Source of the DNA: Crossiella sp. CA-258035
GTDB lineage: Bacteria; Actinomycetota; Actinomycetes; Mycobacteriales; Pseudonocardiaceae
Length of the DNA stretch: 64,000 nucleotides
Assembly (NCBI RefSeq): GCF_030064675.1
Contig: NZ_CP116413.1
Span: 2,760,001 to 2,824,000 of the forward strand
Direction: 5' to 3'
This document shows, piece by piece, positions 5,119 through 47,170 of this stretch (the stretch's first letter is position 1; every line of letters starts with the position of its first letter). The position numbers and the translations under genes were made by a program. The notes under the pieces were generated by a model. That model did not search any database. It had not been told where the DNA came from and saw nothing but the letters and a program-made list of their open reading frames with translations.

Positions 5119-5699
5119 CTATCTCTCAAATATCTAGACATCCCAGCTTCTAACCGTTGCCCACCGGTCGCATTGCTATTCGCGGACCCGTGCCCTGGGT
5201 GGTGAGCCGGGCGAGTCCGCCGCGGACACGGGGCCGCGCGGTCGGCTCGCACCCCGCGGCGCGCGACAGCCACCTCCGCTGCTCCTCACTCACCAGCGAG
5301 ACCTCCGGGCATGTCCTGGCGCACCGCGGCCAGCGCGACGGGCGCGGGGGGCAAGGTGGGCGAGTTGTTGCCAGGCAAGTCGGACGTGACCGCCAGCCTG
5401 GTAGTGCAGGCCAAGACCATCCACGGCGGCATCCACTGCCACCACCACGTCGCGATGGGCGGCCGGTCACGCTATCGACTGGACCCCGCCGAACCGGAGC
5501 CTCGTGGTCGAGTTCACCGGAGGCGATGCGGAACTGGCCGCCCTTCAGCCCACGGGTATCACCGATCGCGGCATGCGACTGCCCGCTCTGTCCTCGACTG
5601 ACATTGACCCGCATCGGCAGCGGATGGCAGCGCCCTTCCCACAACGCGATCCAGGCATGCGAAACCAAAGCATTGGCGTCGCTGCGCCGCATCGCCACC

Positions 5700-12511: not shown

Positions 12512-12606
12512 AAAGCCCCGCTGACCTGGCTTGACGCCAGTTTCAGCGGGGCTTTCTCAGACCGTCGGGACGACAGGATTTGAACCTGCGACCCCTTGAC
12601 CCCCAG
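12512..12606. repeat. attL: displaced tRNA-Pro 3' end plus terminator
   Basis: The copy of the att repeat distal to the integrase. Positions 12565-12606 equal nucleotides 33-74 of tRNA-Pro(GGG) on the minus strand, so this is the original 3' end pushed away by integration. 12512-12555 holds the tRNA terminator: AAAGCCCCGCTGA paired with TCAGCGGGGCTTT, with a second small stem in the loop. Identity stops right after CCCCAG at 12606. Leftwards a weaker match to the right end continues to the TCTAGA motif at 12476, 36 bp outside. Confidence 0.9.
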
Positions 12607-18492: not shown

Positions 18493-20007
18493 TCAGTAGG
18501 CGGTCAGCAACGCCCGCTCGGCACGCCCGGTGGAGGGAGCGTGCCGGCGCGCTTCCATCTCGCCGTAGTAGAAGTCCCCGGCCCCGGCCTCGTTCTTGCC
18601 GTCCTCGAAGGCCTTGCGCAGCGACCGGTACACCACCGCCAGCCGCTCCGGACCCACTGGCGGGCCCTCGACACCGTCAAGATCGGGGAGGGCCTTGGTC
18701 CAGCCGCCGGACTTGCGCCGTCTGGCGCGCCAAGGGTGTTCCTCGGCCAGCACGCGCCGGGAGGTCCATCGCCACACTGGCGGCCAGGCCAGGCCGGTCT
18801 GCCAGCCGGGTGGCCGGTTGAACGGACTACGGCCTTCCAGGCGCAGTTTGTCCAGCTGGTGGGCTCCGGTGAAGCGGCACCACCGCAGATCCACATCGGC
18901 CAGCGTTAGCTGCGAGACATCGGTCTCCTGCACCGACAGCAGCTGAGGAACCCACAGCTCAAGACCAGCACCGCGACGGCCGGACACACTCACCGGGTCG
19001 GCTCCGTCCCGCTCAGCCACCCACGCGCTGACCTGTTCGCGCTCCGCTGCCACGGTCCAGCCCGCATGGCCGAATGGTGCTGGCGCGCCGCTCAACGAGG
19101 AGGGCGCACCGAAGAACGTGCCCTGCATATCGATCATCGCGTACCGCACGCGGAGCTCAACCCCGTCTTCAAACCGCGTGCCATTGACCCAAATCTTGCC
19201 CGCCTCCACTTCAACGATGGCTCGTTTGGCAAAGGACGCATTCAACGAGAGCGTGCTCGCCACCAGCGGTCCGATCTGGGTGCTCCCGTTGAACTCCGCG
19301 TCGTCGAACTCGGCGTCCCCGCCGAACTTCACGCTGTCGAACCAGGTTTCCCCGCCGAACTTCGCGTCGTCGAACCGGGCGTACCCGCCGAAGTTCGCGC
19401 CGCCGAACCCGGCCTGCCCGCCGAAGTTCGCGCTGCCGAACCGGGCCAGCCCGCCGAAGTTCGCGCCGTCGAACCGGGCGTGCCCGCCGAAGTTCGCGCC
19501 GTCGAACCCGGCCAGCCCGCCGAAGTTCGCGTCGTCGAACCGGGCGTACCCGCCGAAGTTCGCATGGTCGAACCGGGTGTGCCCGCCGAACTCCGTGCCG
19601 TCGAACCGGGCGTCCCCGCCGAACTCCGTGCCGAAGAACCGGAAGACGGGGAGGGCGAGGTCGTTAGAAGTGGCAGTGCCGGTGTGCTGTGGGTCGTCAC
19701 CGGAGAAGAAGCAGTGTCGGAAATCCGCACGGCCAAAGCGAGGAAAGGAGCGGGGCGGATCCTCACCTTCGGACATGCCCGCCAACAGCCGCTGCAGAAG
19801 CCCCGGGGTCAGAGTCGTGCCGCGAAGGTCCACATCAGCCCCAGGAGCGAACCGGCCAAGTGCGGTGTCAAGATGGTCGCCAGCCAGGTGCGCAAGGCAC
19901 TGCTCGATCCCCTCAATCCGCCGACCGGAGCACCGTCCCGCATCCTCGGTGCAGGTAGGCCAGTCGGGAACGAAACGAGGCCTGGCGTTGGTGGTGTCAT
20001 CGGGCAT
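18493..20007 (-). CDS. pentapeptide-repeat protein
   Basis: This 504-residue protein has an N-terminal Cys motif (PTCTEDAGRCSG, then CLAHL; about 18-41) typical of actinobacterial pentapeptide proteins. About eleven decapeptide units of the form FGGxARFDxAN (about 125-240) form a right-handed quadrilateral beta-helix. A second region of less regular repeats follows (to about 400), then the conserved FYYGEMEARRHAPS box (about 478-491). The normal C-terminal membrane segment follows in frame but after a TGA that replaces the expected Trp. Pentapeptide proteins of this class are of unknown function; some mimic DNA. It is alone on its strand between the mob region and the HAD operon. Confidence 0.8.
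   Translation of the reverse strand: MPDDTTNARPRFVPDWPTCTEDAGRCSGRRIEGIEQCLAHLAGDHLDTALGRFAPGADVDLRGTTLTPGLLQRLLAGMSEGEDPPRSFPRFGRADFRHCFFSGDDPQHTGTATSNDLALPVFRFFGTEFGGDARFDGTEFGGHTRFDHANFGGYARFDDANFGGLAGFDGANFGGHARFDGANFGGLARFGSANFGGQAGFGGANFGGYARFDDAKFGGETWFDSVKFGGDAEFDDAEFNGSTQIGPLVASTLSLNASFAKRAIVEVEAGKIWVNGTRFEDGVELRVRYAMIDMQGTFFGAPSSLSGAPAPFGHAGWTVAAEREQVSAWVAERDGADPVSVSGRRGAGLELWVPQLLSVQETDVSQLTLADVDLRWCRFTGAHQLDKLRLEGRSPFNRPPGWQTGLAWPPVWRWTSRRVLAEEHPWRARRRKSGGWTKALPDLDGVEGPPVGPERLAVVYRSLRKAFEDGKNEAGAGDFYYGEMEARRHAPSTGRAERALLTAY
19288..19635 (-). repeat. 30-bp tandem coding repeats
   Basis: About eleven imperfect 30-bp units within the pentapeptide gene, each encoding two pentapeptides (core FGGxARFDxAN). 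The repetition creates long open frames in all other frames of this stretch, which are artefacts. Confidence 0.8.
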
Positions 20008-26736: not shown

Positions 26737-28716
26737 ATGAGCAGGAAGAAGAACTGGGCCCGCGGCGGGTTCACCAGCGTCACCGGCCTGAACGAGGCCG
26801 ACCGCTCCCGCGCGGCGGCCTACCTGCCGCCGTGGGCGGCCGGGCTGGGCCTGTACCCGGCCTCGCTGATCTCCCACTACGCCGCCTCCGCCCCGGAGGC
26901 GCTGCCGTGGGTCTCGGCCGGGATGGCCCTGGCCGGCGGTGCGCTGACCGGGGTGACCTGGCTGGCTGCCTCGGCTCGTGCGCAGGTCACGCGCATCCAC
27001 AGCACGCTGACCACCGGGCTGGCCAGCCTGTGGTTCACCTCCGCGACCATCGCCGATCCCACCGAGCCGGTGCTGTGGGGCTCCTGGGCCATCGCGGCCC
27101 CCGCGGTGGCGCTGTCCTGGAACATCCGCCACCTGCTCCGCAACAGCGGCAGTGAAACCGCTGGTGGGGGCCTGTTCGAGAAGGTCAAGCTGGCCGGGGT
27201 GCAGGCCCGCCAGATCGAGGTCGCGCCGGGCCGGGTCACCGCCCAGCTGCAGCTCCCGGCCGGGGAGATGACCGTGGCCGACGTGCAGGGCGCGACCGGG
27301 CAGATGGCCTCGGCCATGCGCCTGCCGGGCAACTCCGTGCGCATCGCCCCGGACCCCGATGACGCCTCCCAGGCGAAGATGACCATCGTCCCGGTCGACC
27401 TGCTGCGCCACCCCCGCCCCTACCCCGGCCCGTCGGCCCCGGGCGGATCGATCACCGAGGCGCTGGTGGTCGGCACCTACGAGGACGGCCAGCCGCAGTG
27501 CCTCTACCTGCCCGGATGCAAGGCCACCCGCCGCAACGCCACCCACGTGATCGTGCAGGGCATGAACGGCAGCGGCAAAAGCCACGGGGCGAAGTTGTGC
27601 TGGACGGAGATCCTCACCCGCCGCGACGTCAACCTGGTGGTGATGGACCCCTCCAAGGGCGAGCAGACCGTGGGGTTCCTCGGCGAGCACACCCCGGTGG
27701 TGATCGGGCAGAACAAGTGCGCCGACCTGATCACCCGCATCACGGACCTGATCACCGAACGAGCCACTGACCTGGGCCGATGGGGCTATGACCAGTGGAC
27801 CCCGGAGGTCTATGCCAAGCACGGCATGCCGTATCTGGTGATCTGGGTCGAAGAAGCCCCGCGTGTGCTGGAGGACGCCAAGACCCTGGCCCGTATCGCC
27901 CAGGAAGCCCGCTCGGCCGGCATCTCCCTGGTGCTGTCGCTGCAGAAGGCCAGCTTCCGGCAGATGCCCACCGATGTCCGCTCCCAGCTGGGTGCGGTGT
28001 GGTGCTTCGGGGTGAACAGCATCGAAGACGCCGCCTTCACCCTCTCCGACGAGCTGATCGAGGCCGGGGCCAACCCCGCGGCCTGGAAGAACCGCAAGCC
28101 CGGCGCCAACTACCTGGAAGCCCCCGGCATCGAGGAGGAGCGCTTCACCGTCCCGGGCAGGACGTTCGACGGCCAGGACGACGAGCTCGCCCAGGTCATC
28201 GCCGCCACCGCACACCTGCGCGCCCCGCTGCACCCGGCCGTGGCCCGCCACCTGGGCCTGTCCACCCCCATCCCCGGCGCCGCCGGTGCCGCAAAACAGC
28301 AGGGAGGAGCCTTGTCGGCCACCTTCACCCCCAGCCTGGACCCCCTCGACCGCGAGCTCAGCGACGCGGAGGAGAACACCCCGCTGACCGGCCCGGCCAA
28401 CCACGAACCCGACCTGGAGGTCGACCTGGACGCCGAGCTGCCCGAAGCCGACGAGACCCCGTTCGGCCGGCCGCGCCCGACCAAGCAGGAGGTCCGCAAG
28501 TTCATGGCCGACCGCATCACCCAGCTGGTCAAGGAGGGCAAGACCCGGATCACCACGCGGGACTTCCCCGACCCGGAGCGCTACCTGGGCCGCACCCGCG
28601 GCTGGGTCTCCGGGGAGCTGGCTCGCCTGGCCGCCCAGGGCCAGCTGCGCGAGATCGGCGAGGACAACCGCGCCGTCGTCTACGAGATCCCCACCCGCGA
28701 CGCTCACGCAGCGTAG
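26737..28716 (+). CDS. TraB-type FtsK/SpoIIIE DNA translocase (conjugation)
   Basis: This 659-residue conjugative translocase moves double-stranded DNA between hyphae, the transfer mode of Streptomyces plasmids and AICEs. The N-terminal region has three to four hydrophobic segments (about 32-130). The FtsK-like ATPase has Walker A GMNGSGKS (275-282) and Walker B YLVIWVEE (366-373), then QEARSAGISLVLSLQK and LSDELIEAGA motifs. An acidic linker (520-575) leads to a C-terminal winged-helix domain (about 585-655) that would read the transfer site. AAAGGAG precedes the ATG. It is the only transfer ATPase in the element. Confidence 0.9.
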   Translation: MSRKKNWARGGFTSVTGLNEADRSRAAAYLPPWAAGLGLYPASLISHYAASAPEALPWVSAGMALAGGALTGVTWLAASARAQVTRIHSTLTTGLASLWFTSATIADPTEPVLWGSWAIAAPAVALSWNIRHLLRNSGSETAGGGLFEKVKLAGVQARQIEVAPGRVTAQLQLPAGEMTVADVQGATGQMASAMRLPGNSVRIAPDPDDASQAKMTIVPVDLLRHPRPYPGPSAPGGSITEALVVGTYEDGQPQCLYLPGCKATRRNATHVIVQGMNGSGKSHGAKLCWTEILTRRDVNLVVMDPSKGEQTVGFLGEHTPVVIGQNKCADLITRITDLITERATDLGRWGYDQWTPEVYAKHGMPYLVIWVEEAPRVLEDAKTLARIAQEARSAGISLVLSLQKASFRQMPTDVRSQLGAVWCFGVNSIEDAAFTLSDELIEAGANPAAWKNRKPGANYLEAPGIEEERFTVPGRTFDGQDDELAQVIAATAHLRAPLHPAVARHLGLSTPIPGAAGAAKQQGGALSATFTPSLDPLDRELSDAEENTPLTGPANHEPDLEVDLDAELPEADETPFGRPRPTKQEVRKFMADRITQLVKEGKTRITTRDFPDPERYLGRTRGWVSGELARLAAQGQLREIGEDNRAVVYEIPTRDAHAA

Positions 28717-34661: not shown

Positions 34662-35225
34662 ATGGACCGCCACTGGCACCCCGATGCCGAGGTGCCCGCC
34701 TACGGCAGCCCGGCCTGGCACGCCCTGCCGGAACAGCACCCGCATCGCCACCGCGCCCTGCTGCTGGCCGCCGAAGCCTGGCGCCGCTACTGGAGCCCGG
34801 AGATGGTCACCCTGCGCGCCGAAGAGGCCGAGCAGCAGATCCGGGCGCGGTTGCGCGCCCTGGCCTTCGAGCTGTCGGAGGCCATGCCCGCGCGCTTCAT
34901 CATCGGCCCGTCCTACCGCGAGCTCGCCGCCCGCCAGATGCTGCGCAGCATCCTGCGTTGCGGCCAGCCCGCCTGCACCGAACTTATCGAGATCACCCAC
35001 CCGTTCCCGGCCCGCTGGCTGGACACCGACGGCTACCCCGCCCCAGCCGCGGTGCGCTGCCCGGCCCACGACACCCCCGGCATCGCCGACCAGGCCCCGG
35101 AATCCGGGGTCCGATCACCCCGGGCCGGTGCCGTCAGGCCGTCTACGGCCCTCTCAGCGCCTCACTCCCAGGGCGCCTCCCGGCCTGCGCGTGACCGCCT
35201 GGCTGCCGAAGGGACTGCGGCATGA
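34662..35225 (+). CDS. hypothetical AICE protein
   Basis: This 187-residue protein begins with a His/Trp-rich segment (MDRHWHPDAEVPAYGSPAW), has an amphipathic centre (EEAEQQIRARLRALAFELSE), and a CGQPAC...RCPAH set of Cys/His that may bind metal. It ends in a Ser/Arg-rich tail that looks disordered. The stop overlaps the start of the DpdA-like gene (ATGA). AAGGAG precedes the ATG. Function unknown. Confidence 0.6.
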   Translation: MDRHWHPDAEVPAYGSPAWHALPEQHPHRHRALLLAAEAWRRYWSPEMVTLRAEEAEQQIRARLRALAFELSEAMPARFIIGPSYRELAARQMLRSILRCGQPACTELIEITHPFPARWLDTDGYPAPAAVRCPAHDTPGIADQAPESGVRSPRAGAVRPSTALSAPHSQGASRPARDRLAAEGTAA

Positions 35226-36061
35226 GGGCGCCGACGTTCCTGCTGGGCACTCACCAGCCCAGCTGGTTCCCCCACGCCGGGGTGCCGCTGTTCGTCTCTG
35301 ACAGCCGCCTGCGCGCCCGGCGTACCTTCCCCCGCGCAGCTGCGCCCTGGTGCCTGGACTCCTCCGGGTTCACCCAGCTCCAGCAACACGGCCGCTGGAC
35401 CTTCACGCCTCAGCAGTACCTCGACCGCGCGCTGCGCTACAGCGAGGAGATCGGCCGCCTGCACTGGATCGCCCCAATGGATCACATGTGCGAGCGGATC
35501 GTGCGTCACGGGGGCCGCCTGGGCCGCATGGTCTTCGCTGGCACCGGCCTGTCCACCGAGACCCATCTGAACCTGACCGTGGACAGCGTCGGACAACTGC
35601 GCGACCTCGCCCGCGGGCGGGTGCACGTCATCCCCGTGGTGCAGGGCGACCAGCAGGCCGACTACGAACGCTGCGCGCTGTTGTACGAGCAGGCCGGGTT
35701 CGACCTGACCCGCGAACCGGTCGTGGGGCTGGGGTCTGTTTGCCGCAGGCAGGGAACGGTTGAGGCGCACCGGATCATCCAGGCCCTGCACGCCCACGGC
35801 ATCGGCAACCTCCACGGCTTCGGCGTCAAGACCCTCGGCCTGCTCCGCTACGGCCATCTGCTCACCTCCGCCGACTCCCTGGCCTGGTCTGAGGATGCTC
35901 GCCGCAAGCAGCACCCGGCCTGCGGACACATCCACCCGCGCGGGGGCAAGAACTGCGCCAACTGCCTGCCCTACGCCCTCGCCTGGCGCGAACGCCTGCT
36001 GTCCCGCCTGGCCACCACGCCCCGGCAACTCGATATCTGGGACCAAGGGGAAGCAGCATGA
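35222..36061 (+). CDS. DpdA/TGT-like transglycosylase-fold protein
   Basis: This 279-residue protein resembles the TGT-like enzymes that exchange a base for a 7-deazaguanine. The DSGGF motif of TGT appears as CLDSSGFTQL (Asp46), GLGSVCRRQ (169-177) replaces the TGT GG-avG loop, and TSADSLAWS (Asp218) fits the nucleophile position. The zinc site appears as CGHIHPRGGKNCANC (Cys234, Cys245, Cys248 and His). This is the layout of phage and element DpdA relatives rather than bacterial tRNA Tgt, which is longer. No dpdB/C or queuosine-precursor genes are nearby. It might modify element DNA using a host precursor, or act on RNA. It lies directly before rep and overlaps it. Confidence 0.7.
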   Translation: MRAPTFLLGTHQPSWFPHAGVPLFVSDSRLRARRTFPRAAAPWCLDSSGFTQLQQHGRWTFTPQQYLDRALRYSEEIGRLHWIAPMDHMCERIVRHGGRLGRMVFAGTGLSTETHLNLTVDSVGQLRDLARGRVHVIPVVQGDQQADYERCALLYEQAGFDLTREPVVGLGSVCRRQGTVEAHRIIQALHAHGIGNLHGFGVKTLGLLRYGHLLTSADSLAWSEDARRKQHPACGHIHPRGGKNCANCLPYALAWRERLLSRLATTPRQLDIWDQGEAA

Positions 36062-37626
36062 GCACCGCCGAACAACCCACCACCGCGAGCCCAGCGCGGC
36101 CCCTGCACGCCGTCCCCACCCCAGCCACCACCAGCGGGCCGCCCGGGCCCGGGTGGGAACCGCCGATCGACCTCGGCGCCGACCACACCCTGCCCCCGTT
36201 CCCGATCCACGCCTTCCCCGGCTGGCTCGGCGACCAGGTGGCCGCAGTGTCCACCGCCACCCAAACCCCGCCCGACCTGGCCGGATGCATCGCCCTGGCC
36301 GCGCTGTCCACTGCCACCGGAGGCCGCGCCCTCATCCAGGTCCGCCCCGGCTGGGAGGAACCCGCCAACATCTACACCGTCCTCGTGCTGCCGCCGGCCT
36401 CCCGCAAGACCGGGGTGTTCCGGGCGATGACCGCCCCGCTCAAGCGCGCCGAACGCGAGCTGGTGGAAGCCCGTAAACAGGACATCCAGGAAGCCAAGGT
36501 CGCCCGCGCCGCGGCGATCGCGGCCAAGGAGAAGGCCGAGCGTGCCGCCGGGGACGCCGCCCCTGAGCTCCGGGACGCCAAGCTCGCCGAAGCGCTGGAA
36601 GCCGCGATGCAGGCCGAGGAGATCGAGATCCCAGCCGAACCGCGGCTGCTGGCCGATGACATCACCCCTGAGCAGACCGCCACCCTGCTCTCCCAGCACG
36701 GCGGCCGCCTGGCCGTGCTCTCCGCCGATGGCGGGCTGTTCGCCACCCTGGCCGGCCGCTACTCCGGCTCGCCGAACCTAGATATCTTCCTCAAAGGCCA
36801 CGGCGGCGACACCCACCGCGTCGACCGCGGTGGGCGCCCCACCGAATACATCGAGCGCCCGGCGATCACCCTCGGGCTGACCGTGCAACCGGCGATCATC
36901 GACGAGCTGTCCAAGACCAGCCTGTTCCGCGGCACCGGCCTGCTCGCCCGGATCCTGTTCTCCGTCCCGGTCAACACCGTCGGCGGACGCCTCATCGGCG
37001 CGCCCCCGGTCCCCGAACAGGTCGCCGCCCGCTACGACCTCAACATCGGCCGCCTGGTCCACGCCATGGACGGCTGGAACGACCCGGCCCGGCTGGCCTT
37101 CACCGCCGAGGCCGACGCGCTGATGATGGAGCTGGAAACCGAGATCGAGCCCAAGCTCCACCCCCAGCGCGGGGAGTGGGCCTCGGTGGGGGACTGGGGC
37201 GGCAAACACGCCGGGTCCACCGCCCGCCTCGCCGGGCTGCTGCACGCCGCGGCCCACCCCCAGGACTGCTGGACCCACCCCATCACCGCCGACACCTTCA
37301 CCGCGGCCTGGACCCTCGGCGACTACTTCGCCGCCCACGCCTTGGGCGTGTTCGACCGCATCGGCGCCGACCCCCAAGTGGACGCCGCGCGGGCGGTGCT
37401 GGCCTGGATCACCGAGCACGGCCCGGACCGGGTGACCAAGCGGGAGATCTTCAACGCCCACCGCTCCCGGTTCAAGCGCGTGGACGCCCTGGACCCGGTG
37501 CTGGCGTTGCTGGAAGAGCACGGCCACCTCCAGCGCGCCCCCGAACCCGACCGCCCTGGGCGGGGCCGGCCGCCGTCGCCGACCTTCTTCGTCCACCCCG
37601 TCCACCGGCGGGAGGCGACCCGGTGA
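36058..37626 (+). CDS. DUF3987-type replication protein (rep)
   Basis: This 522-residue protein matches the DUF3987 helicase-like family found in replication modules of AICEs and phages. After a Pro/Ala-rich start, DLAGCIALAALSTATGGRALIQVR and ANIYTVLVLPPASRKTG (about 75-120) form the first domain, the latter standing where a Walker A loop is expected but lacking GK(S/T). A long Ala/Lys/Glu coiled coil (about 130-180) precedes SADGGLFATLAGRY and ARILFSVP, and a C-terminal winged helix (VTKREIFNAHRSRFKRVD) ends it. It probably initiates element replication. The candidate origin lies directly downstream. Confidence 0.75.
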   Translation: MSTAEQPTTASPARPLHAVPTPATTSGPPGPGWEPPIDLGADHTLPPFPIHAFPGWLGDQVAAVSTATQTPPDLAGCIALAALSTATGGRALIQVRPGWEEPANIYTVLVLPPASRKTGVFRAMTAPLKRAERELVEARKQDIQEAKVARAAAIAAKEKAERAAGDAAPELRDAKLAEALEAAMQAEEIEIPAEPRLLADDITPEQTATLLSQHGGRLAVLSADGGLFATLAGRYSGSPNLDIFLKGHGGDTHRVDRGGRPTEYIERPAITLGLTVQPAIIDELSKTSLFRGTGLLARILFSVPVNTVGGRLIGAPPVPEQVAARYDLNIGRLVHAMDGWNDPARLAFTAEADALMMELETEIEPKLHPQRGEWASVGDWGGKHAGSTARLAGLLHAAAHPQDCWTHPITADTFTAAWTLGDYFAAHALGVFDRIGADPQVDAARAVLAWITEHGPDRVTKREIFNAHRSRFKRVDALDPVLALLEEHGHLQRAPEPDRPGRGRPPSPTFFVHPVHRREATR

Positions 37627-37641
37627 ACCCCCAGACCCCCG

Positions 37642-37961
37642 CGCAGAAACCGCACAATACGCAGAAATCCCAGAACCAGGCCGTTGTCGCAGCTCAGACA
37701 CACTGGGTCGTGATCTTGGTGTCGGTGACGCAGAATTCCGCAGAATTCCGCACAAATACCCGAGCGCCCCGGCGGCCCGGTCCGGCGCGGGCAGCCGCCA
37801 CCGGCCCGGCGTTCACCCGGTTGGCCCAGCGGGAGGGATCGGTGGGTATTTGTGCGGTATTTCTGCGGAATTCTGCGGTGATCACCCAAGATCACTTCGC
37901 AAGGCCGCTACCAGGCCGAACAGGGTGCCTCGGGGATTTCTGCGTATTCTGCGGTTTCTGC
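37642..37961. other. candidate replication origin: concentric inverted repeats of 9-10-bp iterons
   Basis: Four arms share one centre (about 37802). The outer arms 37643-37671 and 37933-37961 match as an inverted repeat at 28 of 29 positions. The inner arms 37710-37761 and 37844-37895 are an imperfect 52-bp inverted repeat. Each arm contains three tandem units of the form CGCA(G/C)AA(W)(W)C, spaced 9 bp in the outer and 10 bp in the inner arms, giving twelve units in all. Iterons next to rep are typical of origins. A 127-codon GTG frame (37623-38006) crosses the region but has no protein-like features. Confidence 0.6.
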
Positions 37962-38002
37962 GGGGCCTCCCCGGCCCCCGGCCCGCTCGCCGGGTGGCCG
38001 CG

Positions 38003-38407
38003 GTGAGGCGCTACCGAGTGGCCGCCGACTGCCACGACCCCCACGCCCAGCGGCACCCGATCCCCACCTACGCCTGGGGCCGGGCACCGGATCACCTCGT
38101 GACCCGCCGCCAACTCCGCGCCGCCGGATGGAGCCCCGGCCAGCACGCGGTCGCGCAGATGCTGCGCCCGCGCAAGCGCCGGCCGACCGAACCACTACGG
38201 GCGTGGCTGTACGACATCGAGGCCGCCGTCCCCAAGCGCGTACCGACCGCGGCGCAGCTGGCCGCGCTCGACAAGGCGCTGCGCGCCCGCCGGACCTGTC
38301 CGGCCTGCGAGCGGGACGTCGGTTACTGCCTGGCCAGCTCCTGGCCCTGCCTTGGCGACTGCCTGGACTGCGCCGCAGTAGCCGGACGACTTCAACTCGC
38401 TGCCTGA
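38003..38407 (+). CDS. RRQRL-motif zinc-binding AICE protein
   Basis: This 134-residue protein starts at GTG 38003, just after the origin-like repeats. It contains the RRQL box (TRRQLRAAGWSPG, about 35-47), RKRRP and a C-terminal cysteine cluster (CPACERD, YCLASSWPC, CLDC) expected to bind zinc. It belongs to the RRQRL-motif zinc-binding protein group often found between rep and int in AICEs. Its role is unknown; position suggests replication or excision control. The longer frame from 37850 runs into the inverted repeats and is not used. Confidence 0.7.
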   Translation: MRRYRVAADCHDPHAQRHPIPTYAWGRAPDHLVTRRQLRAAGWSPGQHAVAQMLRPRKRRPTEPLRAWLYDIEAAVPKRVPTAAQLAALDKALRARRTCPACERDVGYCLASSWPCLGDCLDCAAVAGRLQLAA

Positions 38408-38440
38408 ACGATTACCTGAACAGCAAGGAAGGAAGCCGCG

Positions 38441-39682
38441 ATGACCGGCAACAAGCAGGCCAAGAACTGGCCTCCCATCGGCGTCAAGCTGTCGGTGGAC
38501 ATCGAGAACATCCCGGCCAGCCGGGTGCCGTTCCGAGCGCGGGTCCGCTGGCATGACCCAGGAGCTGCCCGGCGTCTCTCCCTGTCGGAATCCTTCGAGA
38601 CAGAGTCAGCGGCCAGTGACTGGATCGCCGGTGTGGAGGGCTACGTCGCCGGTGGCCAGGATCCGCGGTTGGCCCACATCGCGCTGGCCGCGTACGGAGA
38701 CCTGAAGGTGAAGGACAAGAGCAACATCGACCTGGCCTTCCGCGGCCTGGCTGGCAAGACCCTTGACCCTTACCTTGCCGGGTGGCGCAAGAGAATCGTT
38801 CCCGACCTCGGTCACCTCGCCGTCGGCATGATCACCCGAGGCGTGGTCGACCGCGCCGTGCACAGCTGGATCGCCGACGAGTGCAGCAAGAGCACGGTCA
38901 AGAACACGATCGCGGCCCTGGTCCGAATCATGGAACAGGCCTGCCGAGACGAGACCATCACGCGGAACCCAGCGCGCATCACCGGATGGCAGCGCGAGTA
39001 CATCCAGCACGAGGACGAGCTGGACGATCCGCGCTCGCTCGCGCTTCCGAGCTGGGAGGTGTTGACCCGCTTGGCCGACTCGCTCGTCGCGCACTCGGCT
39101 GGCCAGTACAAGGGATGGGGTGATGTCGTCGTGTTCGCCGCGTGCGCCGCAGCGCGTATCGGCGAGGTCTCGGGCTGCCGGGGCAAGGACATCGACACGC
39201 GAACATGGGAGTGGAACATTCGGCGCCAGACGACGCCAGGTCCTGGTGGACTGACCGACAAAGGCACCAAAGGCCGCCGTGCGCGGAAAGTGCCGATCAT
39301 CAGGGAAATCCGCGAGCTCGTGCAGCGACGCATCGACCAGACCAACGGCGAGAAGAACGCTCGGGTCTTCGTGGGTCCGCGGGGCGGCCGAATCTCCACC
39401 GCGGTCTTCCGCGATGCGACCCACTGGGACGAGGTGGTCACCAAGATGGGCTTCGAGCATCTGCGCCGCCACGATTTGCGGCACACCGGGCTCACCTGGC
39501 TCGCCGACGCCGGCGTTCCCGTTCACCACCTGCAAAAGATCGCCGGGCACGGCTCCCTCACCACGACCCAGCGGTACCTGCACCCAGATGGGCAGTCCGT
39601 CACGAATGCCGGGGAACTGCTGTCTCAGCACCTCGGAAACGGCAGCAGGTCCACAGCTGGTCCACGGCTGCGCGCGGTCTAG
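38441..39682 (+). CDS. int: tyrosine integrase
   Basis: This 413-residue phage/AICE-type tyrosine recombinase catalyses integration at tRNA-Pro. An N-terminal AP2-like arm-binding region (about 10-75) and SAM-like core-binding domain (about 100-190) precede the catalytic domain. Its residues are Arg239 (AARIGEVSG), His344-x-x-Arg347 (HDLRHTG), His370 (AGHGSL) and Tyr379 (TTQRYLHPD). The gene ends 31 bp before the right att repeat. The AAGGAAGGA ribosome-binding site is clear. Candidate arm-type repeats overlap its last codons. Confidence 0.95.
   Translation: MTGNKQAKNWPPIGVKLSVDIENIPASRVPFRARVRWHDPGAARRLSLSESFETESAASDWIAGVEGYVAGGQDPRLAHIALAAYGDLKVKDKSNIDLAFRGLAGKTLDPYLAGWRKRIVPDLGHLAVGMITRGVVDRAVHSWIADECSKSTVKNTIAALVRIMEQACRDETITRNPARITGWQREYIQHEDELDDPRSLALPSWEVLTRLADSLVAHSAGQYKGWGDVVVFAACAAARIGEVSGCRGKDIDTRTWEWNIRRQTTPGPGGLTDKGTKGRRARKVPIIREIRELVQRRIDQTNGEKNARVFVGPRGGRISTAVFRDATHWDEVVTKMGFEHLRRHDLRHTGLTWLADAGVPVHHLQKIAGHGSLTTTQRYLHPDGQSVTNAGELLSQHLGNGSRSTAGPRLRAV
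39648..39667 (+). promoter_or_regulatory. candidate arm-type integrase sites, right
   Basis: GGTCCACAG (39648-39656) and GGTCCACGG (39659-39667) are direct repeats with an 11-bp period, inside the 3' end of int and 47 bp before the att repeat. They match the pair at 12702-12721 in sequence, spacing and orientation, as arm sites of one attP would. Confidence 0.45.
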
Positions 39683-39713
39683 ATCAACAAACGCGATCTT
39701 CACACAACAGCAA

Positions 39714-39840
<127 letters not shown>

Positions 39841-40391
39841 GTCTTGCTTCGTTCTCTCGAACGTGATGAAGCCTAGCGCACCGCACCGCCCACCCGGAAA
39901 TCGGGGGTCGCCGAGGTGATCTTGACTCGCCCATGACCCCGCCTCCCGCTCCCCAAAGCCCACACCGCTGCCGGACCGGGAAGTTCAAAGAAACCCCTGA
40001 CCTGCGACAACACCGCACTGCACAACTGAACCGCTGGCGAACCCCTCCGCGAAGCAGTGATGCTGCCCCCGGTTGGCCGGTGACGCTTGCTGGGGAATGG
40101 AGTCGTCGGTTCAGTTGGTGCACGGCCGCGGGAACCCCCACCCGCCGGAGCGCTCGTCCCACCCCCTCGGGGCGAACTCCCGTCGTGTCGCCGGCTGGCG
40201 GAGGTCAACCATGGGAAGCCGTGGGCGCGGGATCCCTGGCTGGTGCGCCACGCGCTGACCCCGTGCGCGCGCCTGCCCGGTGGACCCCTCCTCGACAATC
40301 CGCCGGCCTGCGCCCGCGGCTACCCCCTTGTGCCAACGCCCTGTGACTGGCCAGGGAGTTCCGGGGCGGGAAAGTGTGTCCGGCGGGACCA
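39841..40391. other. intergenic stretch upstream of tRNA-Pro and LuxR gene
   Basis: No gene is supported here. Several overlapping open frames on both strands lack ribosome-binding sites and protein-like composition. It presumably holds the tRNA promoter near the left end. Confidence 0.4.
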
Positions 40392-41274: not shown

Positions 41275-44256
41275 GTGAAGCAGGGTCTGGCATTCGCACT
41301 GCTCGGGCCGGTTCGTGCCTGGCGCGACGGAGCCGAGCTGAACCTCGGTTCCCCGCAGCAGCGGCTGACCCTGGCCACCCTGCTGCTGGCGCAAGGGCGG
41401 GCGGTCCCGGTCGAGGAGATCGCCGCCGCCCTGTGGGGCGCCGCCGTGCCCCGCGCCGCCCGCGGCACCATCCGCACCTACGTGCAACGGCTGCGCCGGG
41501 TGCTGGAGACCGCTGACGGCGAACCGGTCATCGTCTCCGCCGGTGGCGGCTACGCGGTCCGGGTGCCCGAGGAGGCCACCGACCTGGGCCGGTTCCGCCG
41601 CGCCGTGCGCGCGGCCGAAGCGGCCCGCGACCGCGGCGAGGTCAAAGCCGCGGCCGGGCTGTACAAGGAAGCCGTCGAGGAGTGGGACGGTGAGCCGCTG
41701 GCCGGGCTGCACGGCGAGACCGCCGACGCCGAACGCGCCCGGCTGCGCCGCCGCAGGATCGGCGTAGTGGAGGAGCTGGCCACCCTCGAACTGGAGCTGG
41801 GCCGCTGTCCCGACCTGGTCGACCGGCTCGCCGCCGAAGCTCAGGCCGAACCGCTGCGCGAGCGGCTGCACGAGCTGCTCATGCTCGCCCTCTACCGGGC
41901 AGGCCGCCAGGCCGAGGCGCTGACCGCCTTCGACACCCTGCGCAAGCTGCTGGCCGAGGAGCTCGGCGTCGACCCCGCGCCCAGCGTGCGCGAGCTGCAC
42001 CACCGCATCCTGCGCGCCGACCCCGAACTGCTCGGCCAGGCCCGGCCACGACCGGCCCCGCCGCAGGCCGCGCCCGCGGTCACCCCCGCCCAGCTGCCGC
42101 CGGACCTGCCCGCCTTCATCGGCCGCGAGGACGAGCTGGCCGCGCTCACCGTGCCCGAGCAGCCCGACCGGCACTGCCCGGCGGTGGCCGTCGTGCACGG
42201 CACCCCCGGCGTCGGCAAGACCACCTTCGCCGTGCGCTGGGCGCACCGGGTGGCCGCGCGGTTCCCGAACGGCCAGCTCTACGTCGACCTGCGCGGCTTC
42301 GAACCCGAAGGCGTCGCGGTCGAGCCACGCGAAGCGGTGTGGGGCCTGCTGGACGCCCTGGCCGTGCCCACCCAGCTGCGCCCGGACGGCCTGGACCCAC
42401 TGACCGCGCTCTACCGCAGCGTGCTCGCCGGACGCCGCTGCCTGATCCTGCTGGACAACGCCCGCGACACCGCCCAGGTGCTGCCGCTGTTACCCGGCAA
42501 CCCGAACTGCTTCGTGCTGGTCACCAGCCGGGTCGAGCTGTCAGGGCTGGTCGCGGCCACTGGCGCGCACACCGTGGCGCTGGACATCCTCAGCGAGGAG
42601 GAGGCCACCGGCTTCCTGGCCCGCCGCCTCGGCCAGGCCAGGGTCGAGGCCGAACCGGCGGCGGTGCGCGAGATCATCGCCGCCTGCGCCCGGCTGCCGC
42701 TGGCGCTGGCCGTGGTCTGCGCCCGCGCCGCCTACCACCCGGCGTTCAGCCTGGCCGCGGTCGCCGAGGAGCTCGACGCCGCGCGCGGCGGACTGGACGC
42801 CTTCACCGGCGCGGACAGCCGCACCGACGTCCGCTCCGTGCTGTCCTGGTCCTACCGGGCGCTGTCGGTGCCGGCCGCCCGGCTGTTCCGGCTGCTGTCC
42901 TTCCACCCGGCCACCAGCGTCGACCTGCGCGCCGCGGCCAGCCTGGCCGGTCTGCCGGCCGCCCGCGCGCGGGCCCTGTTCCGCGAGCTGACCGCCGCGC
43001 ACCTGGTCGCCGAGGTCGCCCCCGGGCGCTTCCACACCCACGACCTGCTGCGCGCCTACGCCCTGGAGCTGGTCTCCGTCCAGGACAGCGCCGCCGACCA
43101 GCGCGCCGTGCTGCGCCGCGGCCTGGACTACCACCTGCACACCGCGCGCACCGCGGCCCGGATGCTCTCCGCGCACCAGGACCTGCCCGCGCCCGGCGAG
43201 ATCGACCCGGCGGTCAGCCCGCGCGGTTTCGCCAGCTACGAGCAGGCCCTGGACTGGTTCATCCTGGAACACGCGGTGCTCATCGGCCTGGTGCAGCGCG
43301 CGGCCGCCGCCGGGTTCGAACAGCACGCCTGGCAGCTGGCCTGGATGATGCGGCACTACCTGGACTGGGCCGGGCACTGGCGGGACCTGGAGACGGTGCA
43401 CCGGACCGCGCTGCGGGCGGCCACCGAGGCCGGCGACGCGGCCGGGGTGGCCTACGCCCGCCGCGGCCTGGCCAGGATCGAGGCCCACCACGGCCGCTTC
43501 GCCCAGGCCAGGGCGCTGCTGGCGGAGTCGCTGACCGGGTTCACCATCGCCGGGGACACCCTGGCCCGCGCCTACACCCACCGCCAGGCCATCGGCGTCC
43601 GCCAGCTCGAAGGCGACTACGCCGGAGCCCTGGAGGAGGCCGCCGCGGCGCTGGCCCTGTTCCGCGCCGCCGGGTCCGCGGTCGGTGAGGGCGCCGGACT
43701 GCTCGGCCTGGCCGCCAGCCAGACCCGCCTGGGCCGCCACGAGGACGCGCTGCTCTCCGGCCGCCGGGCCCTCGACCTGCTGATGGCCGCCGGCGACCTC
43801 TACGACCTGGCCCTGGCCCTGGACGTGCTGGGCCGCGCCAGCTCCGCGCTGGGCCGCTTCGCCGAGGCCGCCGACTACCGCGAGCGCGGTATCGAGCTGT
43901 CCCGCTCGATGGCCAACCGCGGCGACTTCGTCACCTCGCTGCTGCACCGCATGGTCACCTCCGCGCTGATCTACCTCAGCGAGGCCCGCCACCTGGCCGG
44001 TCAGACCGAGCGGGCCAACCGGGCGCTGCGCGAGGCGCTGACCCGGCTGCGCGAGGAGCTCGACGAGCCCTACCTGGTCGTCGGCGGCGCGGACGGCGCC
44101 ACCGACGCGGCCCTGCGCGAGGTGCTGGCCACGCTGGCGGAGTTCCTGGCCGAGCCGGACGAGGGCGCGGACTGGTACGAGCGGGCGGGCACGGTGCTGC
44201 ACAAGGTGGTCAGCACCGCGGAGGAACTGGGTCTGGGCGCGTACCTGTCCGAATGA
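41275..44256 (+). CDS. SARP/AfsR-type regulator with BTAD, NB-ARC and TPR domains
   Basis: This 993-residue pleiotropic regulator has an N-terminal OmpR-type winged helix (about 5-95) and bacterial transcriptional activation domain (about 100-250). A STAND ATPase follows, with Walker A GTPGVGKT (about 308-315), Walker B LILLDNA and GCPLA-type LPLALAVVCARA. A TPR-like region extends from about 620 to the end. The GTG start has AAGGGGA upstream. Such proteins activate secondary-metabolite or morphological genes in response to ATP and kinase signals. Its 3' end overlaps the next, convergent SARP gene by 47 bp. Confidence 0.85.
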   Translation: MKQGLAFALLGPVRAWRDGAELNLGSPQQRLTLATLLLAQGRAVPVEEIAAALWGAAVPRAARGTIRTYVQRLRRVLETADGEPVIVSAGGGYAVRVPEEATDLGRFRRAVRAAEAARDRGEVKAAAGLYKEAVEEWDGEPLAGLHGETADAERARLRRRRIGVVEELATLELELGRCPDLVDRLAAEAQAEPLRERLHELLMLALYRAGRQAEALTAFDTLRKLLAEELGVDPAPSVRELHHRILRADPELLGQARPRPAPPQAAPAVTPAQLPPDLPAFIGREDELAALTVPEQPDRHCPAVAVVHGTPGVGKTTFAVRWAHRVAARFPNGQLYVDLRGFEPEGVAVEPREAVWGLLDALAVPTQLRPDGLDPLTALYRSVLAGRRCLILLDNARDTAQVLPLLPGNPNCFVLVTSRVELSGLVAATGAHTVALDILSEEEATGFLARRLGQARVEAEPAAVREIIAACARLPLALAVVCARAAYHPAFSLAAVAEELDAARGGLDAFTGADSRTDVRSVLSWSYRALSVPAARLFRLLSFHPATSVDLRAAASLAGLPAARARALFRELTAAHLVAEVAPGRFHTHDLLRAYALELVSVQDSAADQRAVLRRGLDYHLHTARTAARMLSAHQDLPAPGEIDPAVSPRGFASYEQALDWFILEHAVLIGLVQRAAAAGFEQHAWQLAWMMRHYLDWAGHWRDLETVHRTALRAATEAGDAAGVAYARRGLARIEAHHGRFAQARALLAESLTGFTIAGDTLARAYTHRQAIGVRQLEGDYAGALEEAAAALALFRAAGSAVGEGAGLLGLAASQTRLGRHEDALLSGRRALDLLMAAGDLYDLALALDVLGRASSALGRFAEAADYRERGIELSRSMANRGDFVTSLLHRMVTSALIYLSEARHLAGQTERANRALREALTRLREELDEPYLVVGGADGATDAALREVLATLAEFLAEPDEGADWYERAGTVLHKVVSTAEELGLGAYLSE

Positions 44257-47170
44257 GACGGGCGATCCGCTCGACGTCGCCCCGCTCACCCGGCGGCAGC
44301 GGCGCGCCCACCGAGGCCCGCAACCCGGTGGCCCGCGCCAGCGACTCGGCCGCCAGCTGACGGTCCCCGGCCAGCGCGTGCGCGCCCGCGAGTCCTTCCA
44401 GGGCCAGCGCGACCGCCCTCGGATCACCGACCGCCTGCGCGGCCGCGAGCCCTTCCCGGTGCAGGGCAAGGCATTCCGCCGCCTGACCACGCTGCTCGGC
44501 CAGGAAACCCAGCTCGGCCAGGATCAGCGCGACCCCGGCCGCGCCGTCGAAGCGGCGGCACCAGTCCAGCCAGCTCCGCAGCCACCGCTCGGCGGCCGCG
44601 AACTCGCCCCGGCGGCGCGCGATGAGGCCCAGGCCGACCTCGGCGAACTGCCTGCCGCGCTGATGCGACTGCTCGGTGGCCAGCCGCGCGGCCACGGTGT
44701 GCAGCTCTTCCGCGCGCGCCAGCTCGCCGGTGAGCAGGGCCAGCCGGCCGAGACCGGCGTACTCGTAGGCGGCCTCGGTCCACAGCCCGAGCGACTCGGC
44801 CAGCCGCAGCGCCCGCTCGTGACCGCGCGCCGCGGCCGGGTAGTCGCCGCCGATCTGGGCGAGCAGGGTGTCGATCTGCCCGGCCTTGAGCTGTCCCCAG
44901 CGGTCGCCGAGGTCGAGGAACCGGGCGGCGCACTCGGCGCCCAGCGCCCGCGCGGTGGTCAGGTCGCCCGCGGCCAGCGCCAGGGCGGCGCGGGTGTGCA
45001 GGGTGGCGGCCGCGCCCCAGCGCTCGCCCGCGGCGGTGAACGCGGCGTGTGCCCGCTCGGCCCAGGCGGCGGTGGCCGCAGGCGGCCCGAAGTCGCTGCG
45101 CGCCAAGCCGAGGAACCATTCCAGGTGGGTCCGCCTGCTCTCCTGGGCGATGGGGGAGAGGTCGGGGTCGGCGGGTTCGGGCAGGTCCGGGTCCCGGATG
45201 AGCAGGGCGAAGGCGGCCACCCACGCCGACGCCTCGGCCCGCACGGCGTCGGTGTCGTGGCCGGGCGTGTCGAGCAGCGCGGTGAGGGTGCGGTGAGCCT
45301 CGCCGTAGCGGCCGCGCAGATACCAGTACCAGCCCAGCGCGTTGGCCAGCCGCAGCGCGGCCGGGGCGGGACCGGTGAGCGCGCGGCGCAGGTTGGCCGA
45401 CTCGATGTCCAAGCGCCGCAACCAGATCCGCTGCTGCGGGCCGCGCAGGTGCCGGTCGGCCTCCTCGGCCAGGGCCAGGTAGTGCGCCTGGTGCCGCTGC
45501 CGGAGCCGCTGCTGTTCGGCCGGGTCTAGCTGCTCGGCGGCGAAGGCCGCCACGGACTCCAGCAGCCGGTAGCGCGGGCCGTCCGCGGTCTCGGCCATCA
45601 CCACCAGCGAACGATCCACCAGGCCCGCCACCAGGTTCAGCGTCCCCGGCAGCGCGCAGACCGCCTCGGCCGCGGCCAGGTCGCCGCCGTCGGCGAGCAC
45701 GGACAGGCGGCACAGCGCGGCCCGTTCCTGTTCGCTCAGCGGCTGCCAGCTCCAGTCGATCACCGCGCGCAGCGTGCGCTGCCGGGCAGGCGCGCCGCGG
45801 TTTCCGTTGTCCAGCAAGGAGAACCGGTCGTCCAGGCGGTCGGCCAGCGCCCGCACACCGAGCGCGGGCACCCGGGTGGCGGCCAGTTCCAGTGCCAGCG
45901 GCAGGCCGTCCAGGCGACGGCAGATGACCGCCACCGCCGCCGGGTCCAGCCGGGCGCCCGGCGCGGCCGCGGCGGCCCGCGCGGTGAACAGCTCGGCCGC
46001 CTCGGCCGGGGCCAGCGGCGGCACCGGGAAGCGGTGTTCCCCAGGCACGGCAAGGGGTTCCCGGCTGGTGGCCAGCACCCGCACCCCTGGCGCGACGGCC
46101 AGCAGCCGGGTGAGCAGCCCGGCTGCCGGATCCAGCAGGTGCTCGCAGTTGTCCAGCAGCAGCACCAGGTTCCGCTCCCGCAGCGCGTCCAGGTCGCGCA
46201 CGCCGAGCACCGCGGTGACCACGTCCAGGACCTCCCCGGCGGCGGCCAGCTCAGCCAGCCACACCCCGTCGGGCGGGTCCAGCCGCCGGGCCGCCTCGAT
46301 GGCCAGCCGGGTCTTGCCGACCCCGCCCGGCCCGGTCAGGGTCACCAGCCGTGCCCGCGCCAGCAGCGCGCCCACCGCGGTCACCGCCTCCTCCCGGCCG
46401 ATCAGCTCAGCCGCGGGGGCGGGCAGGTTGGTGCGCGGCCGGACGGCCAGTTCCGGCGACCGCGTCAGGATCGCCTGGTGCAGGGCGAGCAGTTCGGGAC
46501 CGGGATCCACGCCGAGCTCCTCGGCCAGCCGCCGCCGCAGCTCGGCGTAGGCCGCCAGCGCCTCGCCCTGGCGCCCTGCCCGGTAGAGCGCGCGCAGCCG
46601 GATCCCGTGCAGCCGCTCCCGCAGCGGGTGCCGCGCCACCAGCTCACCCAGCTCGGCGGTCAGGTCCGCGCCCAGCGCCAGCCGCGCCTCGGCGTGGTCC
46701 TCCACGGCGGTCAGGCGCAGCTCTTCCAGACGTCCCACGGTGATCCGGGTGAACTCGGCGTCGGCGAACTCGGCGAAGGCCGGTCCCCGCCACAGCGCCA
46801 GCGCGTCGGTCAGCAGCTCCGCCCGCACCGCGGGCTCGGCACTGGCCCCGGCCTGCTCGAGGAGCGCCTGGAACCGCCACAGGTCCACCGAGTCGGGCTC
46901 GGCGCGCAGCAGGTAACCGGATCCGGTCGAGACGACCAGGTCCCGGCCGATGGCCTTGCGCAGCTGCCAGATCCGGGTCTGCACCGCCTGCGCCGGATCC
47001 GCGGGCGCGCGCTCGCCCCACAGGTCCTCGACCAGCCGGTCCACGCTGACCGGGCGGCCGAGGTGCTGCAGCAGGTCGGCCAGCAGCGCGCGGACCTTGA
47101 CCTCGCGGATCCGCACCGGGCCGCCGTCCTCCGCCCGCACCTCCAGCGGCCCCAGCACCCCGAACCACAC
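44210..47170 (-). CDS. SARP-type regulator with BTAD, STAND ATPase and TPR domains
   Basis: This 986-residue protein has an N-terminal winged helix ([15 protein letters not shown]) and BTAD (about 95-245), then a LuxR/AfsR-like ATPase with Walker A GPGGVGKT (about 280-287) and [10 protein letters not shown] (about 330). Winged-helix and TPR-like regions extend to the end. GTG 47170 has GGGTGAG upstream. It is divergent from an SDR gene across a 52-bp region with GAGCG heptamer repeats, so it likely regulates that gene. It is tail-to-tail with the other SARP, which may be a paralogue. Confidence 0.85.

Follow-up and report, generated by a model that had tools for sequence, protein, structure and literature searches.

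A candidate replication origin of twelve converging repeat units behind a DUF3987 gene in an actinomycete integrative and conjugative element

The described origins that most resemble the locus presented here are those of the Staphylococcus aureus pathogenicity islands (SaPI) and related phage-inducible chromosomal islands (PICI), where two sets of iterons are placed 3' of the helicase gene (PMC6092414, PMC7581432). The SaPI Rep and the Cch2 helicase of the staphylococcal cassette chromosome mec (SCCmec) are thought to load themselves and to unwind the DNA from between opposed assemblies (PMC7581432). In this work, we analyzed a 64,000-nucleotide stretch of Crossiella sp. CA-258035 (contig NZ_CP116413.1, positions 2,760,001 to 2,824,000; hereafter, the window), in which an array of short repeats follows the gene of a DUF3987 protein carried by an actinomycete integrative and conjugative element (AICE). 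Judged from sequence comparison, the array is very probably the site where the element starts its own copying.

As in SaPIbov1, SaPI5, and EcCICFT073, the array lies directly 3' of the gene of the helicase-initiator, a position found in 78 of 145 loci, and its repeat sets are oppositely oriented (76 of the 78 arrays converge), as is reportedly the case for the two iteron sets of SaPIbov1. Iteron specificity resides in the C-terminal domain of the island Rep proteins, and covariation alone points to the same domain here. The locus differs from the islands in that its proposed initiator is a DUF3987 protein, its element appears to be conjugative and not a phage satellite, and its units form triplets in two tiers at fixed distances with an additional conserved motif between the tiers. 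Cch2 of SCCmec likewise attaches through its C-terminal domain to short repeats situated directly behind its gene, at a putative origin; however, this is a 23-bp region with three AAGTG iterons in direct repeat, and the helicase is of the Primase_Cterm/D5 type. An initiator with a C-terminal winged helix and an origin downstream of its gene is also described for ORF904 of pRN1 (PMC4234260), but there the proposed origin is a large stem-loop without iterons, whereas our spacers show no pairing constraint. The AICE modules RepSA, RepAM, and Prim-Pol/RepPP belong to elements of the same type, with Int, TraB, Rep, and a tRNA target, although the available portion of the source neither names DUF3987 among the Rep families nor describes such an origin (PMC3218068). 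Among the papers listed in a literature search, none described such an origin for DUF3987 or AICEs in its title or the beginning of its abstract.

Classical iteron plasmid origins of the Rep_3/RepE type combine short sites in direct repeat with an AT-rich region and a Rep that has winged helices. The array does not belong to this class, as its triplets are inverted and its Rep is a helicase-type DUF3987 protein. An earlier note on this DNA had called the design unlike the usual direct-repeat arrays, which is right with respect to iteron plasmids but overlooks that SaPI and PICI origins already have two iteron sets (PMC6092414, PMC7581432).

Layout of the array and its spacers

Exactly twelve CGCANAA units were counted within 321 bp (37642-37962), six on the forward strand and six on the reverse strand, all of them converging (Table 1). 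The outer pair of triplets is centered at 37802 and the inner pair at 37803, such that the twelve-unit concentric double inverted repeat of the earlier note is real, with centers agreeing within one base. The spacing of 9 or 10 bp given there applies to most steps (9/9 in the outer triplets and 10/10 in the inner left one) but misses one step of 11 bp in the inner right triplet (11/10). The gap between outer and inner triplet is 61 bp in the left half and 59 bp in the right one, and the first unit starts 15 bp past the DUF3987 stop codon. The whole window contains 28 copies of CGCANAA on both strands, 12 of them inside the array. The arms were also detected by a repeat search as I1 (47 nt, 83%), I2 (23 nt, 96%), and others. 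When the array was searched against its own genome, only the array itself (both strands) and two short weak matches appeared, and an Rfam scan of 37000-39900 gave nothing besides the tRNA.

The spacers between the tiers carry a motif of their own. Aligned over 21 of the 23 loci with a clean twelve-unit layout (see below), both spacers show GTTTNCGCWGGTCA followed, about 12 bp further in, by GTGATCWTGG; the motif columns peak at 2.3 bits, whereas resampling reached at most 0.49. Unlike the units themselves, the motif is identical in elements with different units; the two copies in the window are both imperfect. The spacer statistics omit two Streptomyces loci (L141 and L222), whose spacers carry TGACCTGCG, the motif core being on the other strand. 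When up to 2 mismatches are allowed, GTTTNCGCWGGTCA follows rep in 23 of the 27 loci with at least 10 units, 15 of the 51 with 4-9 units, and 16 of 67 that have no recognised units, while control regions gave 0-2 loci per class. The motif is, as a fair guess, the site of a host factor. The host genome holds 8 exact copies of GTTTNCGCWGGTCA (L228-L235), none in the window and several between genes, and a reversed control pattern had 0 matches in that genome. At one of these copies (L230), TGATCA stands 13 bp beyond GTTTNCGCWGGTCA, the same distance as in origins such as L057 and L063.

Conservation and co-change with the winged helix

At a threshold of E 1e-30, DUF3987 homologues were detected in three overlapping genome sets: 34 of the 397 genomes from the order, 48 of the 390 from the family, and 24 of the 394 from the class. 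We fetched 93 homologue places, omitting partial, split, repeated, or more distant ones. A related-locus search of genome contigs with alignment A1 returned 301 related stretches, from which 79 distinct loci were kept and, once 26 duplicates of other fetched loci had been dropped, 53 retained; the same search with the single DUF3987 protein found nothing. This gave a total of 147 loci including the window, and the array pipeline was run on the 145 with enough downstream sequence. A first quick scan (8 resamplings per locus) was noisy, with up to 10 run matches in some resampled sequences, and was superseded by this scored pipeline.

Arrays, defined as at least 4 units of the common form after rep, were found in 78 of the 145 loci, 27 of which have at least 10 units. 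In three rounds of order-1 Markov resampling, arrays appeared in 0, 1, and 0 of 145 loci, and three control regions of the same loci gave 0/147, 0/145, and 0/146. The loss of symmetry in relatives, named in the earlier note as a ground against its reading, was not seen, since 76 of the 78 arrays converge. The clean twelve-unit layout, for which surplus matches were removed by hand (three in the window and one each in L063 and L093) and L192 was left out, was present in 23 loci; the outer steps are 9/9 in all 23, the inner steps are 9-11 bp, the center measures 24-122 bp, and the outer-to-inner distance is 83-87 bp on both sides in 21 of 23. The geometry is thus kept while the letters of the unit change, as a protein assembly would demand.

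The units fall into the word classes CGCA, GACA, CACA, and GCCA; in most of them, the next letters are a variable base and then AA. We computed the mutual information between unit positions and each of 494 columns of the DUF3987 alignment in 56 loci. The top-ranked columns were residue 466 for n1 and n2, 468 for n0, 472 for n5, and 502 for n8, all in the C-terminal winged-helix region, although n0 and n5 have close runners-up elsewhere in the protein. G at n1 accompanies Arg466 in 14 of the 14 loci with Arg, against 1 of the 42 without it; among 22 new loci, the figures were 15/15 and 0/7. These two sets are the loci with clear units among 94 and 53, respectively. With the two sets combined (78 loci), the rule ranks first among 1376 residue states (phi 0.97, next 0.70). 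As the loci are partly non-independent (at 70% identity, the 56 amount to an effective number of about 24), we used a tree built from residues 28-430 only, on which 6.9 of 7 independent pairs agree with the Arg466 rule and none disagrees (median p 0.016).

Streptacidiphilus sp. ASG 303 carries two elements (L212 and L213) whose helicase parts are 96.3% identical, which differ at residue 466 (N or R) and at six other winged-helix residues, and whose units are CGCA and GACA. From these sequences, the pair looks like a natural test of specificity and suggests how co-resident elements may avoid interfering with each other. In four further records (L236 to L239), GACA-type units, recognised by eye, follow the DUF3987 gene and Arg occupies the aligned place. 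One of them (L236, NZ_CP107792.1) is a circular Streptomyces record of 18,451 bp listed as a plasmid; it carries FtsK, prim-pol, DUF3987 (YfjI), the array, a helix-turn-helix (HTH) gene, and an integrase, and looks like a free AICE. A Tsukamurella plasmid (L239) has at 5463-5564 the left half of the origin only, with two triplets and GGACAGAA, and no clear right half. The other two are phages, one of Streptococcus (L237) and one from the gut (L238); in both, GACAAAA units come after the DUF3987 gene, and in L237 they face away from an AT-rich middle, opposite to the AICE arrangement.

The origin reading and its alternatives

The 522-aa protein matches Pfam PF13148 (DUF3987) with 346.9 bits (gathering cut-off 27), and it is predicted to have an ATPase core with the MCM fold and a C-terminal winged helix, as in MCM-like AAA+ proteins. 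A sequence search of the PDB with alignment A1 gave three matches, the best at E 0.063, none of them meaningful. We consider it very likely, on the strength of the comparison, that the array is the AICE replication origin and the upstream DUF3987 protein its initiator, with a winged helix that reads the unit and MCM-like cores that load on opposed halves. The C-terminal winged helix would read each unit of about 7 bp; three units per tier and two tiers per half, in two opposed halves, would place the initiator subunits head to head around the GC-rich center; and the MCM-like cores would assemble in opposed orientation, open the DNA between the halves, and leave both ways. While the layout, its conservation, and the co-change of the unit with winged-helix residues were computed here, we infer the binding of the protein to the unit, the identity of the origin, a ring on each half, the place where melting starts, and the direction. 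The earlier note had seen here a probable origin right after rep, to which a Rep multimer could bind from both sides; this part of its proposal is well supported by the covariation and the kept layout, while the cruciform it also suggested is not (see below).

Several observations weigh against such an origin. The center is GC-rich (GC 0.65-0.82) in all 23 clean loci, and it is an AT-rich region that separates the iteron sets of SaPI and PICI origins. Foldseek alone gives no match below E 0.001 for the DUF3987 protein, whose fold is a prediction; that search reports matches only, and families missing from its list are not thereby ruled out. Winged helices usually recognize DNA through helix 3, but residues 465, 466, 468, and 472, which covary here, occupy the end of helix 2 and the turn that leads into helix 3. 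The Arg466 rule has an exception in L101, and a weaker rule, in which A at n2 goes with any residue but F or L at 465, does not reach significance on the tree (agreement in about 7 of 9 pairs, disagreement in 1, median p 0.07). Moreover, the array is not obligatory for DUF3987, since 69 of the 147 loci lack it by the criteria used, a number that is an upper bound because GTTGACA-type units (as in L121, L123, and L126) and a few inverted triplets fail the unit score. Inverted triplets anywhere were found in 4 of 52 array-less loci (L074, L111, L192, and L220) by a search that is insensitive, as it missed one of three positive controls. In 11 displayed array-less loci, judged by eye, a small Xis-like HTH gene directly follows DUF3987; they include Nonomuraea, Actinomadura, and Herbidospora, and L164, L167, L178, and L200 are among them. 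Array-less DUF3987 elements must start replication elsewhere or use another signal. Nor is twelve a fixed number, as 51 loci have only 4-9 recognised units.

A more specific proposal, which we hold only tentatively and think rather doubtful, is that the twelve units form a stoichiometric loading platform on which six winged helices per half set up two rings head to head on duplex DNA with no loader. The assembly might then be a pared-down version, in bacteria, of the MCM double hexamer, with the tier motif as a second ring contact or a host-factor site, an addition that we likewise regard as doubtful. Some loci have six units in all, so a match of six units to one ring per half, attractive as it is, is not required.

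Among the other functions that the array could have, an operator or switch is the best placed, albeit unlikely: the DUF3987 or another protein would control the int/RRQRL operon, and replication would start elsewhere. The array does lie between rep and the integrase operon, sites near a gene are often autoregulatory, and the same protein could do both. However, the downstream genes vary while the array and DUF3987 stay, as among the 27 loci with at least 10 units (window included) an RRQRL homologue is found anywhere in the fetched flank in 12 and a match to the window Int in 8, and twelve mirror-symmetric units over 321 bp far exceed, in our judgement, the needs of an operator. No neighbor in the window is constant, and a constant downstream gene as the array binder was rejected on this basis, which covers the window's neighbors, the downstream genes of other loci not having been clustered.

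A stem-loop or cruciform origin, with inverted repeats kept for pairing as for pRN1-type prim-pol/helicase initiators, is improbable. The single strand of the array folds with a z of -10.8, and mirrored units are more alike (0.854) than other units of their tier (0.706), with 0 of 2000 permutations as high. Yet this likeness is also expected from place-specific preferences in a symmetric complex, the unit varies together with a residue of the protein, and the spacers between tiers (59-61 bp), compared in 21 of the 23 clean loci, mirror no better within an element (0.450, n=21) than between elements (0.442, n=420). The cruciform idea of the earlier note is therefore unsupported: the spacers show no pairing constraint, although the unit blocks are less clear-cut.

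TraB proteins use a winged helix to recognize short repeats, and the element encodes one of them, so that the array could be a set of TraB/FtsK translocase sites, a clt-like transfer locus with TraB recognition sequence (TRS) repeats. We give this very little credit, on indirect evidence: the unit covaries with residues of DUF3987 (first among the 1376 states), and TraB sits at a distance of 9 kb. By tblastn, the window TraB is matched in only 2 of the 147 fetched loci, weak evidence given upstream flanks of about 1.5-10 kb. Integrase arm sites or excisionase sites are the least likely of all, for although the integrase is near and Xis-type sites are direct repeats of about 10 bp, the attachment region is probably beyond int (tRNA-Pro and the 30-bp repeat at 39714), and the 11 displayed loci in which an Xis-like gene directly follows DUF3987 all lack the array.

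The element and the meaning of its probable origin

Table 1. Features of the array and of the element in the window.
Feature	Position	Strand	Basis
Outer left triplet (37642, 37651, 37660; 9-bp steps)	37642..37666	+	Unit count; layout kept in relatives
Left spacer motif copy, consensus GTTTNCGCWGGTCA, here imperfect GTTGTCGCAGCTCA	37683..37696	+	Spacer alignment
Left GTGATCWTGG motif, here GTGATCTTGG	37710..37719	+	Spacer alignment
Inner left triplet (37729, 37739, 37749; 10-bp steps)	37729..37755	+	Unit count
Center, 94 bp, 79% GC, not AT-rich	37756..37849	.	Composition profile
Inner right triplet (5' ends 37856, 37867, 37877)	37850..37877	-	Unit count
Right GTGATCWTGG motif, here GTGATCTTGG on the - strand	37886..37895	-	Spacer alignment
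Right spacer motif copy, weak match, GTTCGGCCTGGTAG on the - strand	37908..37921	-	Spacer alignment
Outer right triplet (5' ends 37944, 37953, 37962; 9-bp steps)	37938..37962	-	Unit count
DUF3987 (YfjI-like) proposed initiator of 522 aa, with a predicted MCM-like AAA+ helicase core and C-terminal winged helix	36058..37626	+	
C-terminal winged-helix region, residues 436-514	37363..37599	+	Covariation; secondary structure
RRQRL motif-containing zinc-binding protein, encoded behind the array; not constant in relatives	38003..38407	+	NCBIfam NF041638, E 1e-34
Tyrosine integrase of the element	38441..39682	+	Pfam Phage_integrase, E 1.9e-22
tRNA-Pro(GGG), probable insertion target	39766..39840	-	
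TraB/FtsK-type transfer protein of the same element	26737..28716	+	NCBIfam plasmid_TraB, 768.6 bits, just below cut-off 800

The element of the window is an AICE, with a tyrosine integrase beside a tRNA gene, a TraB/FtsK transfer protein, and a Rep. A 30-bp direct repeat (12512-12541 and 39714-39743), both copies of which are outside the tRNA-Pro gene, may mark its ends, in which case the element measures about 27 kb. Among 16 window ORFs scanned, TraB, a weak relaxase match, and Int were seen, but no packaging gene. The start of the DUF3987 gene is overlapped by a DpdA-like gene (35222-36061; Pfam PF23859, DeoxyPurine in DNA protein A, E 4.4e-67), with homologues upstream in three more loci (L073, L178, and L182), which would put a DNA-modifying enzyme next to the proposed initiator. 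DpdA was rejected as a partner of the array, having matches in only 2 of the 27 loci with at least 10 units (window included). From the ORF list alone, the reverse-strand ORF 18493-20007 has long pentapeptide-type repeats (xFGGxAxFDxAx), and beyond the tRNA two large SARP/AfsR-like regulator ORFs, 41275-44256 (+) and 44210-47170 (-), are convergent with a 47-bp overlap.

A candidate origin and a one-residue recognition rule are thus available for DUF3987, whose helicases belong to conjugative elements of actinobacteria. The family has more distant kin in phages: one phage homologue is matched by 914 phage records, and 54 of the 60 listed match it in its helicase part. The PICI-style origin is said to occur in no other known replicon; our comparison suggests that it also serves conjugative elements, and the DUF3987 origin would be, with its differences, a counter-example in kind to that exclusivity. 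It would also offer an MCM-like loading site that is strictly ordered and short enough for in vitro work.
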